From assembly GCF_012843875.1 (NCBI RefSeq), contig NZ_JABAFY010000001.1, positions 62,001 through 126,000 on the forward strand: DNA of 64,000 bases. The letters run 5' to 3'. This DNA comes from Desulfovibrio piger (lineage in GTDB: Bacteria; Desulfobacterota; Desulfovibrionia; Desulfovibrionales; Desulfovibrionaceae). Below, piece after piece: positions 8,302 to 53,687 of the stretch. Every line of letters begins with the position of its first letter. Within the stretch, counting starts at the first letter, position 1. The position numbers were made by a program, and so were the translations under genes. Below the pieces are notes generated by a model. It did not search any database and was not told where the DNA came from. It saw nothing but the letters and a program-made list of their open reading frames with translations.

Positions 8302-8840
<539 letters not shown>

Positions 8841-46263: not shown

Positions 46264-48306
46264 ATGTCCCAGGAACGGATTACCACTCTCTTAACCGAGA
46301 AGCGTAGCTACCTCCCCCCCCGAGCACGGCAAGTCGTCCGCGTGGATCTGCGGTCAGGACGAAGCCGACGCCATCTGCCGGCGAGCTCTGGAAGACCCCA
46401 ATGACTTCTGGGGTGCACGCGCATCGCAGCTGATCCACTGGTTCAAGCGCTGGGACAAGGTACTGGAGGCCGACGAAGCGCGGCACAAGTACAGATGGTT
46501 CACCGGCGCCAAGCTCAATGCCGCCTTCAACTGCATCGACCGCACCTCATCTCCGGCCGCCGCAACAAGGCCGCCCTCATCTGGCAGGGCGAAAAGGAAA
46601 TGGACGTGCGCTGCTTCACCTACCAGATGCTCTATACCGAGGTCTGCCGTGTGGCCCACGCCCTGAGCTCCCTGCACATCAACAAGGGAGACCGTGTGGC
46701 CCTGTACATGCCCATGATCCCCGAGCTGGTCATCGCCATGCTGGCCTGTGCCCGCATCGGCGCCATCCATACGGCCATCTTCTCCGGCTATGCCGAAGGC
46801 GGCGTGCGCAGCCGTATCCAGGGCTCCAAGGCCAAGGTCGTCATCACCGCCGATGCCGCCATCCGCGCCGGCAAGATCAAGCCCCTCAAGGCCAACCTGG
46901 ACCCCATCCTGGAAAAGTGCCCCTCCGTGGCCCACGTGGTGGTGGTGAACCACGCCGACCTCTACGACGTGAAAATGACCCCCAACCGCGACATCTGGTG
47001 GCATGACCTCATCGAGGACTTCACCCTGGACGTGGACTTCCCCTGCGAGCCCATGGACGCCAACGACACGCTCTTCCTGCTGCATACCAGCGGCAGCACC
47101 GGCAAGCCTACGGGCATCATGCACTCCACGGGCGGCTACCTGACCTATGCGGCGCATACCACGCAATGGGTCTTCGACATGCGCGACGACGACGTCTACT
47201 GGTGCACGGCCGACATGGGCTGGATCACCGGCCATACCTACGGCGTGTACGGACCGCTGGCCCTGGGCGCCACCGTGGTGATGTTCGAAGGCGTGCCCAC
47301 ATGGCCAAAGCCGGACCGCTACTGGCGCATCGTGGAAAAATTCCGCGTCAACATCCTCTACACGGCCCCCACGGTCATCCGTTCCCTCATGCGTCTGGGC
47401 GAAGCCTGGGCCGAACGCTATGACCTGCGCACCCTGCGCATCCTGGGCTCCGTGGGCGAACCCATCAACCCCGAAGCCTGGCACTGGTACCACAAGAACA
47501 TCGGCGGCAGCGAGCTGCCCATCGTGGATACCTGGTGGCAGACCGAGACCGGCGGTGCCATGATCAGCCCCCTGCCCTACGCCACCAAGCTCAAGCCCGG
47601 CTCGGCCTCGCGACCCCTGCCCGGCATCGACGCGGCCGTCATGGGCGGCAGCGCCACCCGTGACGAGGAAGACGGCGACGGCTCCACCCGCAGCGGCCAT
47701 CTGGTCATCCGCAAGCCCTGGCCCGGCATGATGCAGGGCGTCTACAACGACGAAGAAAAGTACCAGTCCTACTTCTCGCGCTTCGGCTGCTATGAGTCCG
47801 GCGACGGCGCCGAAGTGGACGAGGACGGCTACTTCTGGATCCTGGGCCGCGTGGACGATTCCATCAACGTTTCCGGCCACCGTCTCTCCACCGCCGAGAT
47901 CGAGGCCGTGCTGGCCTCCTGCCCCGAAGTGGCGGAAGCCGCCGTGGTGCCCATGCCCCATGCCCTCAAGGGCGAAGGCATCTACGCCTATGTTGTCACC
48001 CGTGACGAAGTGCCCTGGAGCGACGACGTGCGCAAAAAGCTGCGCGACACCGTGCGCCGCGACATCGGCGCCCTGGCCTCCCCCGAATACATCCAGTTCG
48101 TGGAAGCCATGCCCAAGACCTGTTCCGCCAAGGTCATCCGCCGCATGCTGCGCAAGATCGCGGGCAACGTCTATGACGACCTGGGCGATACCACGGCCCT
48201 GGCCAAGCCCGAAGTGCTCGACCACATCATCGTCGGTCACCGCAACCTGCTGCAGGGCCAGCACGAGACGGCCAACCTGCCCGACGAGGACCAGCCCAAG
48301 GAATAG
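46264..48306 (+). pseudogene. acs: Acetyl-CoA synthetase, interrupted by two compensating frameshifts
   Basis: AMP-forming acetate activation. The ATG at 46264 is behind GGAG. The correct frame is lost inside a run of eight C (46314-46321), continues in the next frame (EHGKSSAWICGQDEADAI...KLNAAFNCIDR), and is regained near 46541-46543 where one base is missing before HLISGRRNKAALIWQGE. The rest is intact: LLHTSGSTGKPTG (AMP-binding P-loop), DTWWQTETGGAMISPLP, the hinge YFWILGRVDDSINVSGHR, and the acetylated-lysine region KTCSAKVIRRMLRKIAGN. Corrected, it would encode about 680 residues. Either a pseudogene or two sequence errors. Confidence 0.88.
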
Positions 48307-48329
48307 GCTCTCCCCCGCTCCCTGATACG

Positions 48330-48364
48330 AAAAAAGACCACCCGCCGACGGGGGGTCTTTTTTT
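48330..48364 (+). terminator. Intrinsic terminator downstream of acs
   Basis: AAAAAAGACCACCC / GGGGGTCTTTTTTT hairpin; usable in both directions. Confidence 0.8.
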
Positions 48365-48439
48365 GTCCGCAGCCTCCTGCGGGCTCCTTTCCCCGGCGGA
48401 GCGGCCGGCCCCCCAGGCCGTAACGGCCGCCCCCAAGGT

Positions 48440-48736
48440 TCAGGAATCGTTGCCGCGTCCCTCCGCGTGCGTCTCCCGCAGCATGCGCCAGAACTGGCGG
48501 CATTCCTCGGGATAGGAAGCCATCAGGAAACACAGGGCCAGGACCACCAGAGCCAGCAGACACAGGGCCAGGCAGACGATCTGGGCCAGGGCCAGCAGGG
48601 CGACCAGGGCCGCCAGCAGGCCCGTTCCCCAGACCGCCAGCCGCCGGATACCCGTGGCCAGCAGGGCTTTCCACCGGGGGACGGCCGCCCCCGAAGCAGC
48701 GGGCAAAGCCGCATTCCCGTCGGAAGGACGCTCCAT
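48440..48736 (-). CDS. Small membrane protein in the iron-related cluster
   Basis: A 98-residue protein I do not recognise. After about 28 polar residues come two hydrophobic segments (about 30-75: RRLAVWGTGLLAALVALLALAQIVCLALCLLALVVLALCFLMA), then a charged cytoplasmic-type tail. The ATG at 48734-48736 has AAGGAT upstream. It follows the 73-residue membrane protein gene by 10 bp and is evidently co-transcribed with it, leftwards from the Fur-like box. Confidence 0.7.
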   Translation of the reverse strand: MERPSDGNAALPAASGAAVPRWKALLATGIRRLAVWGTGLLAALVALLALAQIVCLALCLLALVVLALCFLMASYPEECRQFWRMLRETHAEGRGNDS

Positions 48737-48746
48737 GTGACGATCC

Positions 48747-48968
48747 TTACAGGGCCTTGCGGCGCTTCCAGACGTGGTCGGCCAGCAGGGCGCTGAACAC
48801 GGCGCCGGTCAGCACATGGGCCGTTTTGTTGCCGGCAAAGCCCAGCACCACCGATGCCCCCAGCGCACCGAGCATGATGCGCATGGCCAGTTTGCGCCCG
48901 CTGAGCTTTTTGGTCGCGGGCCGTGCGGGGACAGCCAGGTCCCCTGTAGCGAGACAGGCTTCTTCCAT
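48747..48968 (-). CDS. Small glycine-rich membrane protein in the iron-related cluster
   Basis: A 73-residue protein. A basic stretch (KKLSGRKLAMRI) leads to a hydrophobic glycine-rich segment (MLGALGASVVLGFAGNKTAHVLTGAVFSALLADHVWKRRK) that could form one or two helices. I do not recognise the family. The ATG at 48966-48968 follows AGGAG. It is the first gene of the leftward transcript starting next to the Fur-like box, opposite feoA and the P-type ATPase. Small glycine-rich membrane proteins accompany P1B-6 ATPases in ferrosome loci, which makes the context suggestive. Confidence 0.72.
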   Translation of the reverse strand: MEEACLATGDLAVPARPATKKLSGRKLAMRIMLGALGASVVLGFAGNKTAHVLTGAVFSALLADHVWKRRKAL

Positions 48969-49001
48969 AAGAGCACTCCTGGGGTAAAAGGTTAAAATGA
49001 A

Positions 49002-49029
49002 AAGATAAAAAATTTTACATACAGGTCAA
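49002..49029 (-). promoter_or_regulatory. Candidate promoter for the leftward small-membrane-protein transcript
   Basis: On the minus strand, TTGACC, 16 bp, TATCTT. Confidence 0.45.
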
Positions 49030-49037
49030 AAGAAAAA

Positions 49038-49052
49038 TGAAAGTGATTTTCT
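49038..49052. promoter_or_regulatory. Candidate Fur box between divergent promoters
   Basis: TGAAAGT-G-ATTTTCT, a 7-1-7 near-palindrome placed exactly between the two divergent -35 elements (49024-49029 and 49059-49064). Iron-linked genes on both sides support Fur as the regulator. Confidence 0.55.
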
Positions 49053-49058
49053 TTTTTC

Positions 49059-49087
49059 TTGACACTCATCCTAGTTTACGCCATGCT
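49059..49087 (+). promoter_or_regulatory. Candidate promoter for feoA and the ATPase cluster
   Basis: TTGACA, 17 bp, CATGCT. The -35 is good and the -10 is weak. Confidence 0.45.
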
Positions 49088-49224
49088 TCTTTGCAAGCCC
49101 GGAGTAGCGGTTCGACATGCCGGATCAGCCGCCCCCCAAGCCCGGTCGGGATCGTCCCGGCCGGATCGTACTGCGCAGGTATGCCGGTCCCTGCTCCGGG
49201 CCCGTACCAGCAAAGGAGAAGATC

Positions 49225-49464
49225 ATGAGCGACATCATCAGCCTTCGTCAGATGCAGATCGGCCAGAGCGGCAGGATCGCCACGGTGGAAGCCCTCGGAG
49301 AAATGGGCCGCCGCATCCGGGACATGGGCCTGATCCCCGGGACCACCGTTTCCGTCGTGGGCCGCGCGCCCCTCAAAGACCCCGTTGCGCTGCGCCTTTC
49401 CGGCGTGACCGTCACCCTGCGCAACAGCGAAGCCGACCACATCACCGTCGACGTCTCCAACTAG
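49225..49464 (+). CDS. feoA: FeoA-domain ferrous iron transport accessory protein
   Basis: A 79-residue SH3-like FeoA protein: LRQMQIGQSGRIATVEALGEMGRRIRDMGLIPGTTVSVVGRAPLKDPVALRLSGVTVTLRNSEADHITV, which follows the family pattern closely (RRxxDMGLIPGTxVxVxxxAPLxDP). It normally aids the FeoB transporter, but no feoB follows. Instead the next genes are a small membrane protein and a P1B-type ATPase. The ATG at 49225 has GGAGAAG. The Fur-like box lies about 175 bp upstream. Confidence 0.93.
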   Translation: MSDIISLRQMQIGQSGRIATVEALGEMGRRIRDMGLIPGTTVSVVGRAPLKDPVALRLSGVTVTLRNSEADHITVDVSN

Positions 49465-49569
49465 CCCCTCTCTTCTCCCAATCGTGCGTCTTTTGCTGTC
49501 CGGGCCGTGCCAGAATATGGCCCGGATGGCCCTCTGTATCCTTTTACCTGTGCAAAAGGAGGCACAAGC

Positions 49570-49824
49570 ATGAACAACGGTCTGAAATACGGTCTCTTTT
49601 TCCTGGGTGGTCTGGCGCTGGGCGTCGTGGGCACCGTTGCCGTCACCCGCGGCAAGCTCGATCTCAAACCCCTGGCCACCGATCTGGTGAGCCGCGGCAT
49701 GGACATGAAAGACGCCATCATGAGCAAGGTGGAAGCCGTCAAGGAAGATATGGAAGATCTGGCCGCCGAAGCCCGTCAGGCCGCTGACAAGCGCAAGGCC
49801 GAAGCTGCCGATCCTCAGGCCTGA
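49570..49824 (+). CDS. Small glycine-zipper membrane protein (YtxH-like)
   Basis: An 84-residue protein with one N-terminal hydrophobic segment rich in small residues (YGLFFLGGLALGVVGTVAV; glycine spacing GGxxxGxxG), then an amphipathic helix likely to form a coiled coil (KDAIMSKVEAVKEDMEDLAAEARQAADKRKAEAA). It resembles YtxH-type proteins. The ATG at 49570 has a perfect AAAGGAGG, so strong expression is likely. It is 13 bp upstream of the ATPase. A small membrane protein with a glycine-rich segment directly before a P1B-6 ATPase would fit a ferrosome FezA-type role, an inference. Confidence 0.8.
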   Translation: MNNGLKYGLFFLGGLALGVVGTVAVTRGKLDLKPLATDLVSRGMDMKDAIMSKVEAVKEDMEDLAAEARQAADKRKAEAADPQA

Positions 49825-49837
49825 TGAGGGCACGCGC

Positions 49838-52009
49838 ATGCGCTTTTTTCTGGTTCATGAACTGAGCTGCTCCAACGGGGCCGGACGGCTGCGTGCGCGT
49901 GCCTGCCGCCCCATGACACAGGTGCAGGCCGAGATCCTGGCCGATACTCTGGATGCCATCGACGGCGTGGAAGGCGTGCGGGTCAATCCGCGCGTGCCCA
50001 GCGTCCTCGTGCTCTACCGGCATGCGCAGGCCCGGCAGGACGTGCTCCGCTCCCTGGCTGCCCAGGACGCCGGTGCCCTCAATGACGGCAGCGTCCTGGC
50101 CACCCTGACCCAGGAGCTGGAAAGCAGCCTCGAACGGCACGCTTCCGGCAGCCGCCTGCCGGCCCATGATGAGGACGAGATGGGGGCCCACGGTTTCGGC
50201 CCCCTGATGCGCTTCCTCTTCGTCCGTCCTTTCCTGCCGTTCAAGCTGCGTGTGGCCAGCAGTGTCATGGGAGCCCTTCCCTTTTTGCGAAAGGGCCTCG
50301 CCTCGCTCCTCCAGGGCAAGCTCAATGTCGACGTACTGGATGCCGCGGCCATCGGTGTTTCCCTGCTGCGGCGCGACTTCCGTACCGTCACCGTGCTGAC
50401 CCTGCTGCTGGGACTGGGCGAGGCCCTGGAATACTGGACGCGCCGCCGCTCCATGGACAGCCTGACCGAGAGCCTGGCGCTCAACGTGGATACCGTCTGG
50501 GTACTGGCCGATGGTGTGGAGACCAGCGTCCCGCTCTCCGATGTGCGTGAAGGCGATCTGGTCGTGGTCCGCGACGGCGGCTCCATCCCTGTGGACGGTA
50601 TCGTCGAGGACGGCGAGGCCGTGGTCAACCAGGCCAGCATGACCGGCGAGCCCCTGGGCGTGGCCCGCAGCAAGGGCGCTGCCGTCTACTCGGGCACGGT
50701 GGTGGAGCAGGGACATCTCGTCATCCGCGCCACCCATGTGGGCGACGGCACCCGCCTCAAGCAGGTGGTGCGCTTCATCGAAGAATCCGAGGCCCTCAAG
50801 GCAGGCATCCAGGGCAAATTCGAACGCATGGCCGACATGGCCGTGCCCTTCACCTTCGCCCTGGCGGGCCTTGTGTGGCTCATCACCCGCAACCCCATGC
50901 AGGCGGCTTCCGTGCTGCTGGTGGACTATTCCTGTGCCCTGCGTCTTGCCACCCCGCTGGCCGTGCTGGCCGCCATGCGCGAAGGCGCGCGTCACGGCGT
51001 GGTCATCAAGGGCGGCCGTTTCCTGGAGGCCCTTTCCGAAGCCGATACCGTGGTCTTCGACAAAACGGGCACCCTCACCAACGCCAGCCCCCATGTGGTG
51101 GAGGTCATCCCCGCCGCCGGTCATGACCGGGACGAGGTCCTGCGCCTTGCGGCCTGCCTTGAGGAGCACTTCCCCCATCCTGTGGCCCGCGCCGTTGTCC
51201 GCTGCGCGCAGGAAGAAGGCCTGCAGCATGAGGAAGAGCACGCCCAGGTGGAATATGTGGTGGCCCACGGCATCGCCTCCACCCTGTACGGCAAGGCCGT
51301 GCGTGTGGGCAGCCGCCACTACATCGAATGCGACGAAGGCATCGACCTTTCGCCCCTGGAGGCGGAGATCGACGCCCAGGCCCGGATGGGACGCTCGCTG
51401 CTCTATCTGGCCATCGACGGCAAGCTGGCCGGGTTCCTGGCCATCGAGGACCCCCTGCGTCCCGAATGCCCGCAGGTCCTCAAGCAGCTCGAAGAGCTGG
51501 GCTTCCGCCGCATCCTCATGCTCACCGGCGACGACGAGCGTACCGCCCGTGCCGTGGCCGGCAAGCTGGGCCTCAAGGAATACCGTTCGCAGGTCCTGCC
51601 CGCCGACAAGGCCGACGTCATCGCCGACCTCACCGCCCAGGGCTGCAAGGTCCTCATGGTGGGCGACGGCATCAACGACGCGCCTGCCCTGTCCGCCTCC
51701 CATGTGGGCGTGGCCATGTGCGACGGCGCCGACCTGGCCCGCGAAGTGGCCAATGTGCTGCTCACCCGGCCGGACCTCAGCGGGCTCATCACGGCCCGGC
51801 TGCTGGGCAGGGCCACCCTGCGGCGCATCCACATCAACTTTGCGGCCACCATGCTGCTCAACAGCATGTTCCTGGCCGGGGGCCTGTTCATGATCCTGAC
51901 GCCCGGCGTCTCGGCTCTGTTGCATAACCTGACGACCCTGGGCGTGACACTCAATGCCATGCGGCCGCATCTGCCCGGTCGCCACGCCCGTCAGCTGGAG
52001 GCCGCCTGA
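49838..52009 (+). CDS. P1B-type metal-transporting ATPase with SCA motif (FezB-like candidate)
   Basis: A 723-residue heavy-metal P-type ATPase. The N-terminal ~90 residues look like a degenerate HMA domain without a CxxC. The actuator motif TGEP is at 269, the phosphorylated aspartate D408 is in DKTGTLT, a HP-type motif is in FPHPVARAV, and the hinge is GDGINDAP (about 609-616). The membrane metal-site motif, normally CPC or SPC, is S365-C366-A367 (DYSCALR). As I recall, this variant marks the P1B-6 group, whose members include FezB of ferrosomes. Transported metal probably Fe(II), by context only. It shares one base with the next gene. Confidence 0.9.
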   Translation: MRFFLVHELSCSNGAGRLRARACRPMTQVQAEILADTLDAIDGVEGVRVNPRVPSVLVLYRHAQARQDVLRSLAAQDAGALNDGSVLATLTQELESSLERHASGSRLPAHDEDEMGAHGFGPLMRFLFVRPFLPFKLRVASSVMGALPFLRKGLASLLQGKLNVDVLDAAAIGVSLLRRDFRTVTVLTLLLGLGEALEYWTRRRSMDSLTESLALNVDTVWVLADGVETSVPLSDVREGDLVVVRDGGSIPVDGIVEDGEAVVNQASMTGEPLGVARSKGAAVYSGTVVEQGHLVIRATHVGDGTRLKQVVRFIEESEALKAGIQGKFERMADMAVPFTFALAGLVWLITRNPMQAASVLLVDYSCALRLATPLAVLAAMREGARHGVVIKGGRFLEALSEADTVVFDKTGTLTNASPHVVEVIPAAGHDRDEVLRLAACLEEHFPHPVARAVVRCAQEEGLQHEEEHAQVEYVVAHGIASTLYGKAVRVGSRHYIECDEGIDLSPLEAEIDAQARMGRSLLYLAIDGKLAGFLAIEDPLRPECPQVLKQLEELGFRRILMLTGDDERTARAVAGKLGLKEYRSQVLPADKADVIADLTAQGCKVLMVGDGINDAPALSASHVGVAMCDGADLAREVANVLLTRPDLSGLITARLLGRATLRRIHINFAATMLLNSMFLAGGLFMILTPGVSALLHNLTTLGVTLNAMRPHLPGRHARQLEAA

Positions 52010-52299
52010 TGCTCGACAGCCTGCGCTTCGTGAAATATGTCCGCAGCTTCATGGACGGACGCGTGCGCGTCCGGCACCCTGCCCTGCGTGACGCCGCCAT
52101 CGCCGGTAAAGCCCGCGCCGCCCTCCTGCGTGTGGACGGTGTGCGGGACATAGAGCTCAACCCCCTGAGCGGTTCGGCCCTCATCCTGTATGACAGCACC
52201 CGTCTGTCGCAGGACAGGCTCATCGAGACCGGCTGCCGCTGGGCCGACTGGCTGGACAAAGCCGCACGCGGCCAGGCAGGCGAGATGCCGCCCTTGTAA
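52009..52299 (+). CDS. Degenerate HMA-domain protein in the iron-related cluster
   Basis: A 96-residue protein whose centre (RVRVRHPALRDAAIAGKARAALLRVDGVRDIELNPLSGSALILYD) has the beta-alpha-beta pattern of HMA/HMA2 domains but no metal-binding cysteines. It is much like the N-terminal part of the ATPase just upstream (DTLDAIDGVEGVRVNPRVPSVLVLY). The ATG at 52009 overlaps the ATPase stop by one base, so its synthesis is coupled. A REP-like hairpin and a terminator follow. Confidence 0.82.
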   Translation: MLDSLRFVKYVRSFMDGRVRVRHPALRDAAIAGKARAALLRVDGVRDIELNPLSGSALILYDSTRLSQDRLIETGCRWADWLDKAARGQAGEMPPL

Positions 52300-52311
52300 G
52301 AATGACAGACA

Positions 52312-52377
52312 CTCCGGGGGAGAGACTCTTTGCAAACAAAAGCTCTCTCCCCCGGGCCCCTCTCCCCAAAAACTTTC
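52312..52377 (-). repeat. REP-like dispersed palindrome, copy 2
   Basis: Read on the minus strand it has the same lead-in, AAAGTTTTT-GGGGAGAGGGG, then CCCGGGGGAGAGAG, a TTTG / CAAA centre and CTCTCCCCCGG, as the copy at 9208-9275. It lies just after the ATPase operon. Confidence 0.7.
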
Positions 52378-52474
52378 AGGTACGGGCACAGGTCCCCGTC
52401 GCTGCCTCGTAGTTAGGGACATCCCGGCCTGACGGGGGCCCCATCCAGATCGCTTCCTCCCTTGGAGCCCCCGT

Positions 52475-52506
52475 AAAAAAGGACGCCGCCATGGCGTCCT
52501 TTTTTC
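52475..52506 (+). terminator. Bidirectional intrinsic terminator
   Basis: AAAAAAGGACGCC / GGCGTCCTTTTTT hairpin with a GCCAT loop between the convergent iron cluster and aminotransferase gene. Confidence 0.88.
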
Positions 52507-52581
52507 ATAATGCGCGGTGGGGAAGCGATCCCCTTACGGTGCGGGAAAGAGACTTCCCTCCCGGAAACTCCCTCCCTGAGC

Positions 52582-53687
52582 TTAACCGTTTTGCTGCAAC
52601 CAGCCGTCCAGCACGGCCAGGTTCTCGGCAAAGTTGGCGCGGCCGTAGCCCATGCGCACATAGGGCGCGTCCATGTCATAGACATTGCCGGGCAGGAGCA
52701 GCACACCGGCCGACTGGGCCAGGTGTTCGCAAAAAGCCAGTGCGGAACCGAAGCGGGCCACGAAGTCCGGCCGCAGGCCATGGAAAGCGATGGGACCGGC
52801 CTGGGGCGGATTGTGGAGGAACACGTGGTCGTAACGGGCAAAGAAGTCGGCGGCGATCCGGCGATTGCGGGCGATGATCTCCCGGTTGCGGGCCAGGACG
52901 GCCGGGCCGTGCTTCAGCGCGATGCGGGCCAGGGCTTCGGAAGGCGTGGGGCAGCAGATGCTGAGATAATTCTTGTAGCGGCTCAGGGCGCCGATGGCGT
53001 CCCGTTCCTGCGAGGCGATCCAGCCCACACGCAGGCCGGGCAGGCCGTAGGCCTTGGAGAGCACGCCCACGGAAAAGGCCCGTTCGTAGATGTCGCAAAA
53101 GGCCGGGGGCACGGCATCCGGCGCTTCCAGGCCCCGGTAGACCTCATCGGCCAGGATGCGCAGGCCGTGGCGGCGGGCCAGCTCGCAGATGCGCTGCCGG
53201 TGGGATTGTTGGGCGTGTTCAGCACCAGCAGGCGCGTCCTGGGCGTGATGAGCCGCTCCAGCTCGTCAAGGTCGCAATACCAGCCGTCCTCGCCCTGATG
53301 CAGGGGCCAGAGGGAGAGCTCGCAGCCCGCGGCCCGCGCCACCTCGTACAGGGACTGGTAGGTGGGGAACTGGCAGATCACATGCTCGCCCGGCTCCACC
53401 AGCACGTTGAGAGCTCCGAAGATGGCCTCCTGCGCGCCCACATGCAGCAGCACGTTTTCCGGACCGCACTGCGTGTACAGGCCGGAGACCGCCTCCCGCA
53501 GGGCCGGAGCACCGTCGTTCTCGCTGTAGCCCAGCCAGGTGTCCAGAAAGTCTTCCTGCGCGCCCGGCTCCAGAGCCAGCAACTCGCGGATGCTCAGGGA
53601 CTCGCAGTCCGACTGCGCCAGCAGATACGGCGCGCTGAATTCATACCGTCCAAAAAAGATCTCCAGTCCGAAGTCCCTGATTTTCAT
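52582..53687 (-). pseudogene. PLP-dependent class I/II aminotransferase, interrupted by a frameshift
   Basis: A fold-type I aminotransferase. The N-terminal part (ATG at 53685-53687 behind GGAGG) runs through VGAQEAIFGALNVL, QFPTYQSLYEVARAAG and LNTPNNPTGS. Near 53195-53203 the frame breaks, and the protein resumes in another frame as RQRICELARRHGLRILADEVYRGLEAPD, then VGVLSKAYGLPGLRVGW with the PLP lysine. The end is GRANFAENLAVLDGWLQQNG. Corrected, it would have about 368 residues. The substrate is not clear. It is convergent with the iron cluster. Pseudogene or sequence error. Confidence 0.85.

Follow-up and report, generated by a model that had tools for sequence, protein, structure and literature searches.

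We conclude that the gene cluster at positions 48440 to 52299 of the Desulfovibrio piger stretch studied here (64,000 nucleotides of contig NZ_JABAFY010000001.1, hereafter the window) is probably a Fur-controlled ferrosome (fez) locus. Ferrosomes are recently described membrane-bound iron-storage organelles with few known parts. We favor this reading because the ATPase encoded in the cluster forms a clade with FezB of Desulfovibrio magneticus and stands next to a FezA protein as in the FezA-FezB pair of Clostridioides difficile, because two small proteins together tile FezC and have a traceable history, because a further small protein family (m2) lies beside fezB at 26 of 26 places matched at E<=8e-5, and because the Fur-type box is the best in the window, with a flavodoxin promoter second. 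The original prediction of a ferrosome-like cluster, made from the DNA letters, is supported at sequence level, and neither of the contrary results that it had named (an ATPase grouping with Cu, Zn, or Co exporters, or small genes without conserved co-occurrence) was found. New here are the apparent resolution of m1 and a 96-amino-acid (aa) HMA_2 protein as two halves of FezC and the putative link of m2 to fez clusters.

The six open reading frames proposed earlier were all recovered where they had been placed. Four of them (feoA and the genes for an 84-aa membrane protein, the ATPase, and the 96-aa HMA_2 protein) have matches above Pfam cut-offs. For m1 and m2, nothing over cut-off was found in Pfam, NCBIfam, or PHROGs, and Rfam gave no match within positions 48000 to 53000 of the window. 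The ratio of nonsynonymous to synonymous substitution rates (dN/dS) is 0.03 to 0.46 across the six genes in codon comparisons with two near relatives (G006 and G249), so all six are likely real genes. Two distant comparisons gave dN/dS values of 0.10 to 0.44 with high dS, and the same-species genome G282 is too close to inform the ratio.

The ATPase (positions 49838 to 52009, plus strand; TIGR01525, 2.9e-154) is well supported, by tree and motifs, as an orthologue of FezB of the P1B-6 type, with iron transport as its predicted activity. SCA in the ion-site helix marks P1B-6, and the window protein indeed has DYSCAL (S365-C366-A367), SCA standing in place of CPC or SPC as first noticed. It also has H696-N697, a pair kept in nine of nine aligned family members; an excerpt of PMC9374683 places the HN motif of P1B-6 in TM6. 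The placement tree proposed as a check is a quick tree of 88 rows (89 frames, less two of other P-type classes, plus that of the window), in which one branch (SH-like approximate likelihood ratio test [SH-aLRT] support, 99) splits 81 SCA-type rows from 7 CPC-type rows, two of the latter coming from the window's own genome. The bulk of the SCA-type rows (74 of 81) form one clade that includes D. magneticus FezB. Exceptions to SCA among the ATPases are SCS in locus L079 and ACA in L037 and in the second ATPases of L086 and L087. Identity to the window protein is 47% for FezB of D. magneticus RS-1, 39% for that of C. difficile, and 72% for that of L115.

Directly 5' of fezB lies the gene for the 84-aa glycine-zipper membrane protein, FezA (positions 49570 to 49824, plus strand; PF19605 [DUF6110], 4e-6, 27.3 bits versus a cut-off of 26). 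Strong initiation had been noticed for it, and AAAGGAGG lies shortly 5' of the FezA ATG. Alignable equivalents occupy the same position in D. magneticus (L069) and in C. difficile (L150), where a DUF6110 protein (1.5e-23) directly precedes the SCA ATPase. Kinship of DUF6110 proteins to PacL, their usual pairing with P1B6 ATPase genes, and a suggested part in platform assembly are described in an excerpt of PMC9374683, so the locus might instead encode a plasma-membrane platform for efflux of iron or another metal, on which FezA clusters the ATPase like PacL and no storage organelle is formed. Sequence alone cannot tell a vesicle from such a platform, yet an iron exporter would be expected under iron excess, and the strongest Fur-type box of the window lies here; this putative Fur-type control is our main argument against efflux. 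In addition, C. difficile needs both FezA and FezB to form ferrosomes, and Fur represses them (excerpt of PMC12574912); the FezC halves and D. magneticus-like gene order fit ferrosomes. We therefore regard an efflux platform as improbable and retain the ferrosome reading.

The remaining ferrosome protein, FezC, is divided in the window. Judged by alignment to D. magneticus FezC, m1 (73 aa; positions 48747 to 48968, minus strand) is its transmembrane half, with two conserved His and the HMA half missing, and the 96-aa protein (positions 52009 to 52299, plus strand; HMA_2 only, PF19991, 4.6e-10) is the other half, still in the fezC slot. In a one-sequence comparison m1 aligns with FezC residues 79 to 142 (28% identity, E 1e-7), and the 96-aa protein aligns with residues 2 to 60 (36% identity, 6e-13); together they tile FezC, as separate genes on opposite strands. 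An intact FezC was not found in the window; it is not a defining feature, as none was seen at the C. difficile locus. D. magneticus FezC has homology to DUF4405, and recombinant FezC binds haem B (excerpt of PMC11334425); haem binding is accordingly predicted for m1. The 96-aa protein had been described as an HMA-like protein free of cysteine, which proved inexact: it has one Cys, though no CxxC. The minus-strand proteins had also been taken as possible unrecognised parts of the system, both starting beside the box. That they belong to it appears right, whereas m1 is recognisable as the FezC transmembrane half, m2 is the one without a family name in the libraries searched, and only m1 starts next to the box, m2 starting 10 bp past the m1 stop.

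Across 247 genomes, 58 membrane modules like m1 were found at E<=1e-8. Of these, 53 are no more than 4 kb from fezB, three are in fezB-bearing genomes but on a different contig from fezB, and two are in genomes without a listed fezB match; the window's genome has one FezC transmembrane module at E<=1e-4. Both His are present in m1 and in 70 of 70 modules from relatives, these having been gathered by a profile that already contains the His. Of 77 loci read in related genomes, five of a second ATPase class were dropped, and the FezC domains were scored in the other 72, all of fez type. The arrangement of the window, a minus-strand membrane half alone with HMA_2 alone downstream of fezB, recurs in 12 of them (13 including the window). 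A full FezC accompanied by a separate HMA_2 gene is found in 32 (in 23 FezC is on the minus strand and HMA_2 downstream, in 5 the full FezC is on the plus strand, and in 4, from other genera, FezC is on the minus strand), and a full FezC without a separate HMA_2 gene is found in 21 (19 downstream of fezB and 2 on the minus strand), the full FezC counted in L059 and L077 including a weakly matched membrane half. HMA_2 occurs alone in 3 loci, and neither half in 4.

In a tree of HMA domains, the 38 HMA-only genes found downstream of fezB in the genus cluster with the full FezC that sister genera carry in the downstream position (support, 90). The genus's 25 minus-strand FezC form a separate clade (99) that also takes in the relocated L105 copy. 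The tree is built on 76 columns, 44 of its 90 inner branches are open, and the window's copy is represented by that of same-species L089. The simplest history would be that fezC was duplicated to the divergent strand, that the copy in the old slot lost its membrane half, and that the divergent copy later lost its HMA half in the lineage of the window. We consider it very unlikely that m1 and the 96-aa protein are small proteins of independent origin with no more than a resemblance to parts of FezC. The sequences are short, their identities to D. magneticus FezC are low, and many forks of the HMA tree are unresolved, all of which would suit mere resemblance; the 23 loci that carry a full HMA_2-plus-membrane FezC in the same divergent position, with an HMA-only gene downstream, argue for descent from FezC, as do the two HMA clades and the invariant His pair. 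A single origin of all membrane-only FezC halves was considered and set aside, as a 39-row tree needs two changes (approximately unbiased [AU] test, p 0.038 for one clade); this rejection is weak and the group was named after it had been seen, so one or two losses of the HMA half are both possible. Among the titles and abstract openings of the open-licence literature, none on a split FezC or on m2 turned up.

The remaining minus-strand gene, m2 (98 aa, two predicted hydrophobic helices; positions 48440 to 48736), represents what appears to be a ferrosome-linked family, and its co-location with fezB makes it a candidate component. A profile of ten homologues, three of them weak, matched 26 of 247 genomes at E<=8e-5, every place lying 460 to 2242 bp from fezB; ten of these matches were seeds and 16 were not, some of the latter being close kin of seeds. 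For four weaker places (0.003 to 0.008), no fezB is listed on the same contig. In the loci that were read, m2 comes right after fezC, both where fezC is a minus-strand gene (this genus) and where it lies downstream of fezB (L074, L076, and L106). As the loosest of the six genes (dN/dS of 0.31 to 0.46 in the two informative near comparisons, with G006 and G249), with a hydrophobic low-complexity sequence and a presence in a minority of fez-bearing genomes, m2 could be a fast-evolving hitch-hiker or a spurious reading frame with no ferrosome role. We consider this rather unlikely, given that all 26 places, 16 of them non-seed, are by fezB and that they span two arrangements of fezC.

The sequence evidence is favourable to control of the locus by Fur at a putative site. 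The Fur-like box first noticed between the two transcripts, AATGAAAGTGATTTTCTTT at positions 49036 to 49054 (a palindrome, with no strand assigned), is the top matrix site of the window at 34.1 bits; the second scores 30.0 and the third, which overlaps the second, 19.8. The matrix was built from 21 sites (11 distinct) that lie 5' of this operon in relatives outside the window's species group; these sites had been picked with the second of two consensus strings used in a first scan, which means that the motif's shape is not independent of that string. The box is flanked by a plus-strand TTGACA (49059 to 49064) and a minus-strand promoter-like site (49029 to 49002). In the first scan, the classic 19-bp Fur consensus was matched in the window at only 13 of 19 positions. 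In the window's own genome the same matrix gives a 24.2-bit site 5' of a DUF2325 gene, itself located 5' of feoB, and a 21.8-bit site between these two genes, and the Fur family is found at two places. The second-best site of the window (8784 to 8808; 8790) lies 42 bp 5' of a minus-strand flavodoxin gene (8302 to 8748; Flavodoxin_1, 1.2e-29), and flavodoxin is a classic Fur target. Another Fur-type palindrome of the genome (21.5 bits; L110:784, contig C58) is situated 149 bp inside the reading frame, taken from stop to stop, of a CPC-type ATPase and ahead of the HMA domain; several start codons occur on both sides of it, so it may precede the true start. In the G006 locus (L032, 6350 to 7386), about 850 extra bases separate the divergent FezC half from feoA, and the box stays beside the FezC half.

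Several results weigh against reading the locus as a Fur-controlled ferrosome locus. The first box scan compared 73 upstream stretches, that of the window among them, with 100 first-order shuffles each; p<=0.05 was attained by 45 and missed by 28, including those of D. magneticus (0.10) and G006, whose kept box lies beyond the stretch scanned. The co-occurrence of the small genes with the ATPase, anticipated as conserved, holds in many relatives and not in all: m2 is found in 26 genomes, whereas matches to the ATPase at E<=1e-110 occur in 149; L044, L046, and L047 have an HMA-only gene and no membrane half within the stretch (two of these genomes have one on a different contig, and none was found in G005); and L048, L056, L058, and L061, some of which are at contig ends, have neither half. 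DUF4405 was not found in m1 at E<=1 or E<=10, and three of five full-length relatives gave sub-cut-off matches (0.089 to 0.47). Finally, D. magneticus FezA is itself below the DUF6110 cut-off (E 0.049).

The first gene of the plus-strand transcript is feoA (positions 49225 to 49464; PF04023, 5.5e-19), present, as first reported, without an adjacent feoB, which is on a separate contig (C63). In a search of 27 genomes, three of them outside the genus, FeoA occurs in the fez locus of all 24 genus genomes, chosen for a well-assembled cluster, and is the only FeoA found in 8 of the 24, including the window's draft genome and one-contig G006. That the operon carries the only feoA was rejected as a rule for the species, as same-species G282 has a second FeoA. 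In G018, G049, and G053, feoB lies a few kilobases from fezB. Ferritin (PF00210) gave no match over the Pfam curated cut-off in the window's genome, with one below threshold; other iron stores were not searched for. Matches in G282 and G249 are likewise sub-threshold only, and G006 has none. A trade-off between ferritin and fezB was also rejected: strong ferritin matches (E<=1e-20) occur in 21 of 40 genomes with fezB and in 4 of 7 without, among the 47 of 55 genomes with known fezB status (8 were dropped).

In a scan of the genome collection, the best 80 of 584 confirmed loci come from Desulfovibrio, gut Clostridia, Parasutterella, Duodenibacillus, Synergistaceae, and archaea. The fezB genes of L127, L128, and L145 (Duodenibacillus and Parasutterella) are 50 to 52% identical to that of the window, as close as many from the Desulfovibrionaceae, which suggests transfer. 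Genome G014 carries a pair of fezB genes on a single contig (L052; JAFSVD010000050.1), separated by about 8.7 kb. The second class of SCA ATPase cluster, represented in related genomes by L068, L086, L087, L088, and L067, has a small membrane module with two His, resembling the FezC half, shortly 5' of the SCA ATPase, on the same strand, in all five loci, and a CPC-type ATPase (ACPCAT...) nearby in four, L067, on a short contig, being without one. These clusters may be another ferrosome-type or metal system.

How the locus might work can be sketched. When iron is short, Fur would leave the shared palindrome and both transcripts would be made. The plus transcript would supply FeoA (partner of the separately encoded importer FeoB), FezA, the iron-pumping FezB, and the soluble HMA_2 half. 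By analogy with FezC as published, the two-helix, two-His membrane half m1 would form a homodimer that holds haem and carries electrons across the ferrosome membrane; m2, predicted to share its transcript with m1, may sit in the same membrane. Iron shortage would in this way co-produce importer partner, pump, scaffold, and redox halves, and on the return of iron FezB would pump Fe(II) into vesicles for storage. More tentatively, and with less confidence than in the ferrosome reading itself, we can imagine a Desulfovibrio lineage in which the ferrosome is the sole dedicated iron store, in which duplication of fezC was followed by reciprocal domain losses in the two copies, leaving a haem-bearing membrane half and an HMA_2 half to work as two separately translated proteins under one Fur switch, in which m2 is a dedicated component, and in which the only feoA of some species lies in the operon and ties import to storage.

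A natural split of FezC would mean that the two domains need not be linked, and it offers a handle on the task of each. The m2 protein is a testable candidate component, found at E<=8e-5 only beside fezB among the 247 genomes. With no ferritin over the Pfam cut-off in the window's genome, iron storage by ferrosomes should be directly testable there by gene removal, in a genus with several relatives from rumen and gut samples.

The closest known system for comparison is that of D. magneticus RS-1, represented by our reference genome G199 (one contig of which matches plasmid NC_012797.1 of Solidesulfovibrio magneticus RS-1 with 100% identity over 2000 bases). There the window ATPase has a single match at E<=1e-110 (4 of 13 candidates were scored), and the order is 86-aa FezA-like protein, SCA ATPase, and 146-aa FezC-like protein with HMA_2 (4.2e-10) and a membrane hairpin, genes that we take to be fezABC from their position, from the original ferrosome paper, and from the account of DUF4405 homology and haem B for FezC (excerpt of PMC11334425). 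The window shares the fezA-fezB order, and its HMA half occupies the fezC slot and overlaps the end of fezB; it differs in that FezC is split over two strands, feoA is in the operon, and a divergent transcript carries m2.

Two further families resemble single proteins of the locus. Like the FezC/DUF4405 cytochromes (excerpt of PMC11334425), m1 has two conserved His in a helix hairpin, but it is without an HMA_2 domain and without a DUF4405 match over cut-off. The mycobacterial PacL/DUF1490 platforms likewise pair a small transmembrane protein, having an acidic, Ala-rich cytoplasmic part, with a P1B ATPase (excerpt of PMC9374683); they have a C-terminal metal-binding motif and a CPC-type partner, whereas the FezA tail (KRKAEAADPQA) contains neither His nor Cys and the window ATPase is of the SCA type. 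Finally, fezAB of C. difficile are two neighbouring genes (excerpt of PMC11651100). By eye, no FezC half, feoA, or m2 was seen among the 13 open reading frames of at least 50 aa around that pair (L150, 2500 to 9000), and FezB is more distant than that of D. magneticus, but there, as in the window, a DUF6110 protein and an SCA ATPase are encoded side by side.

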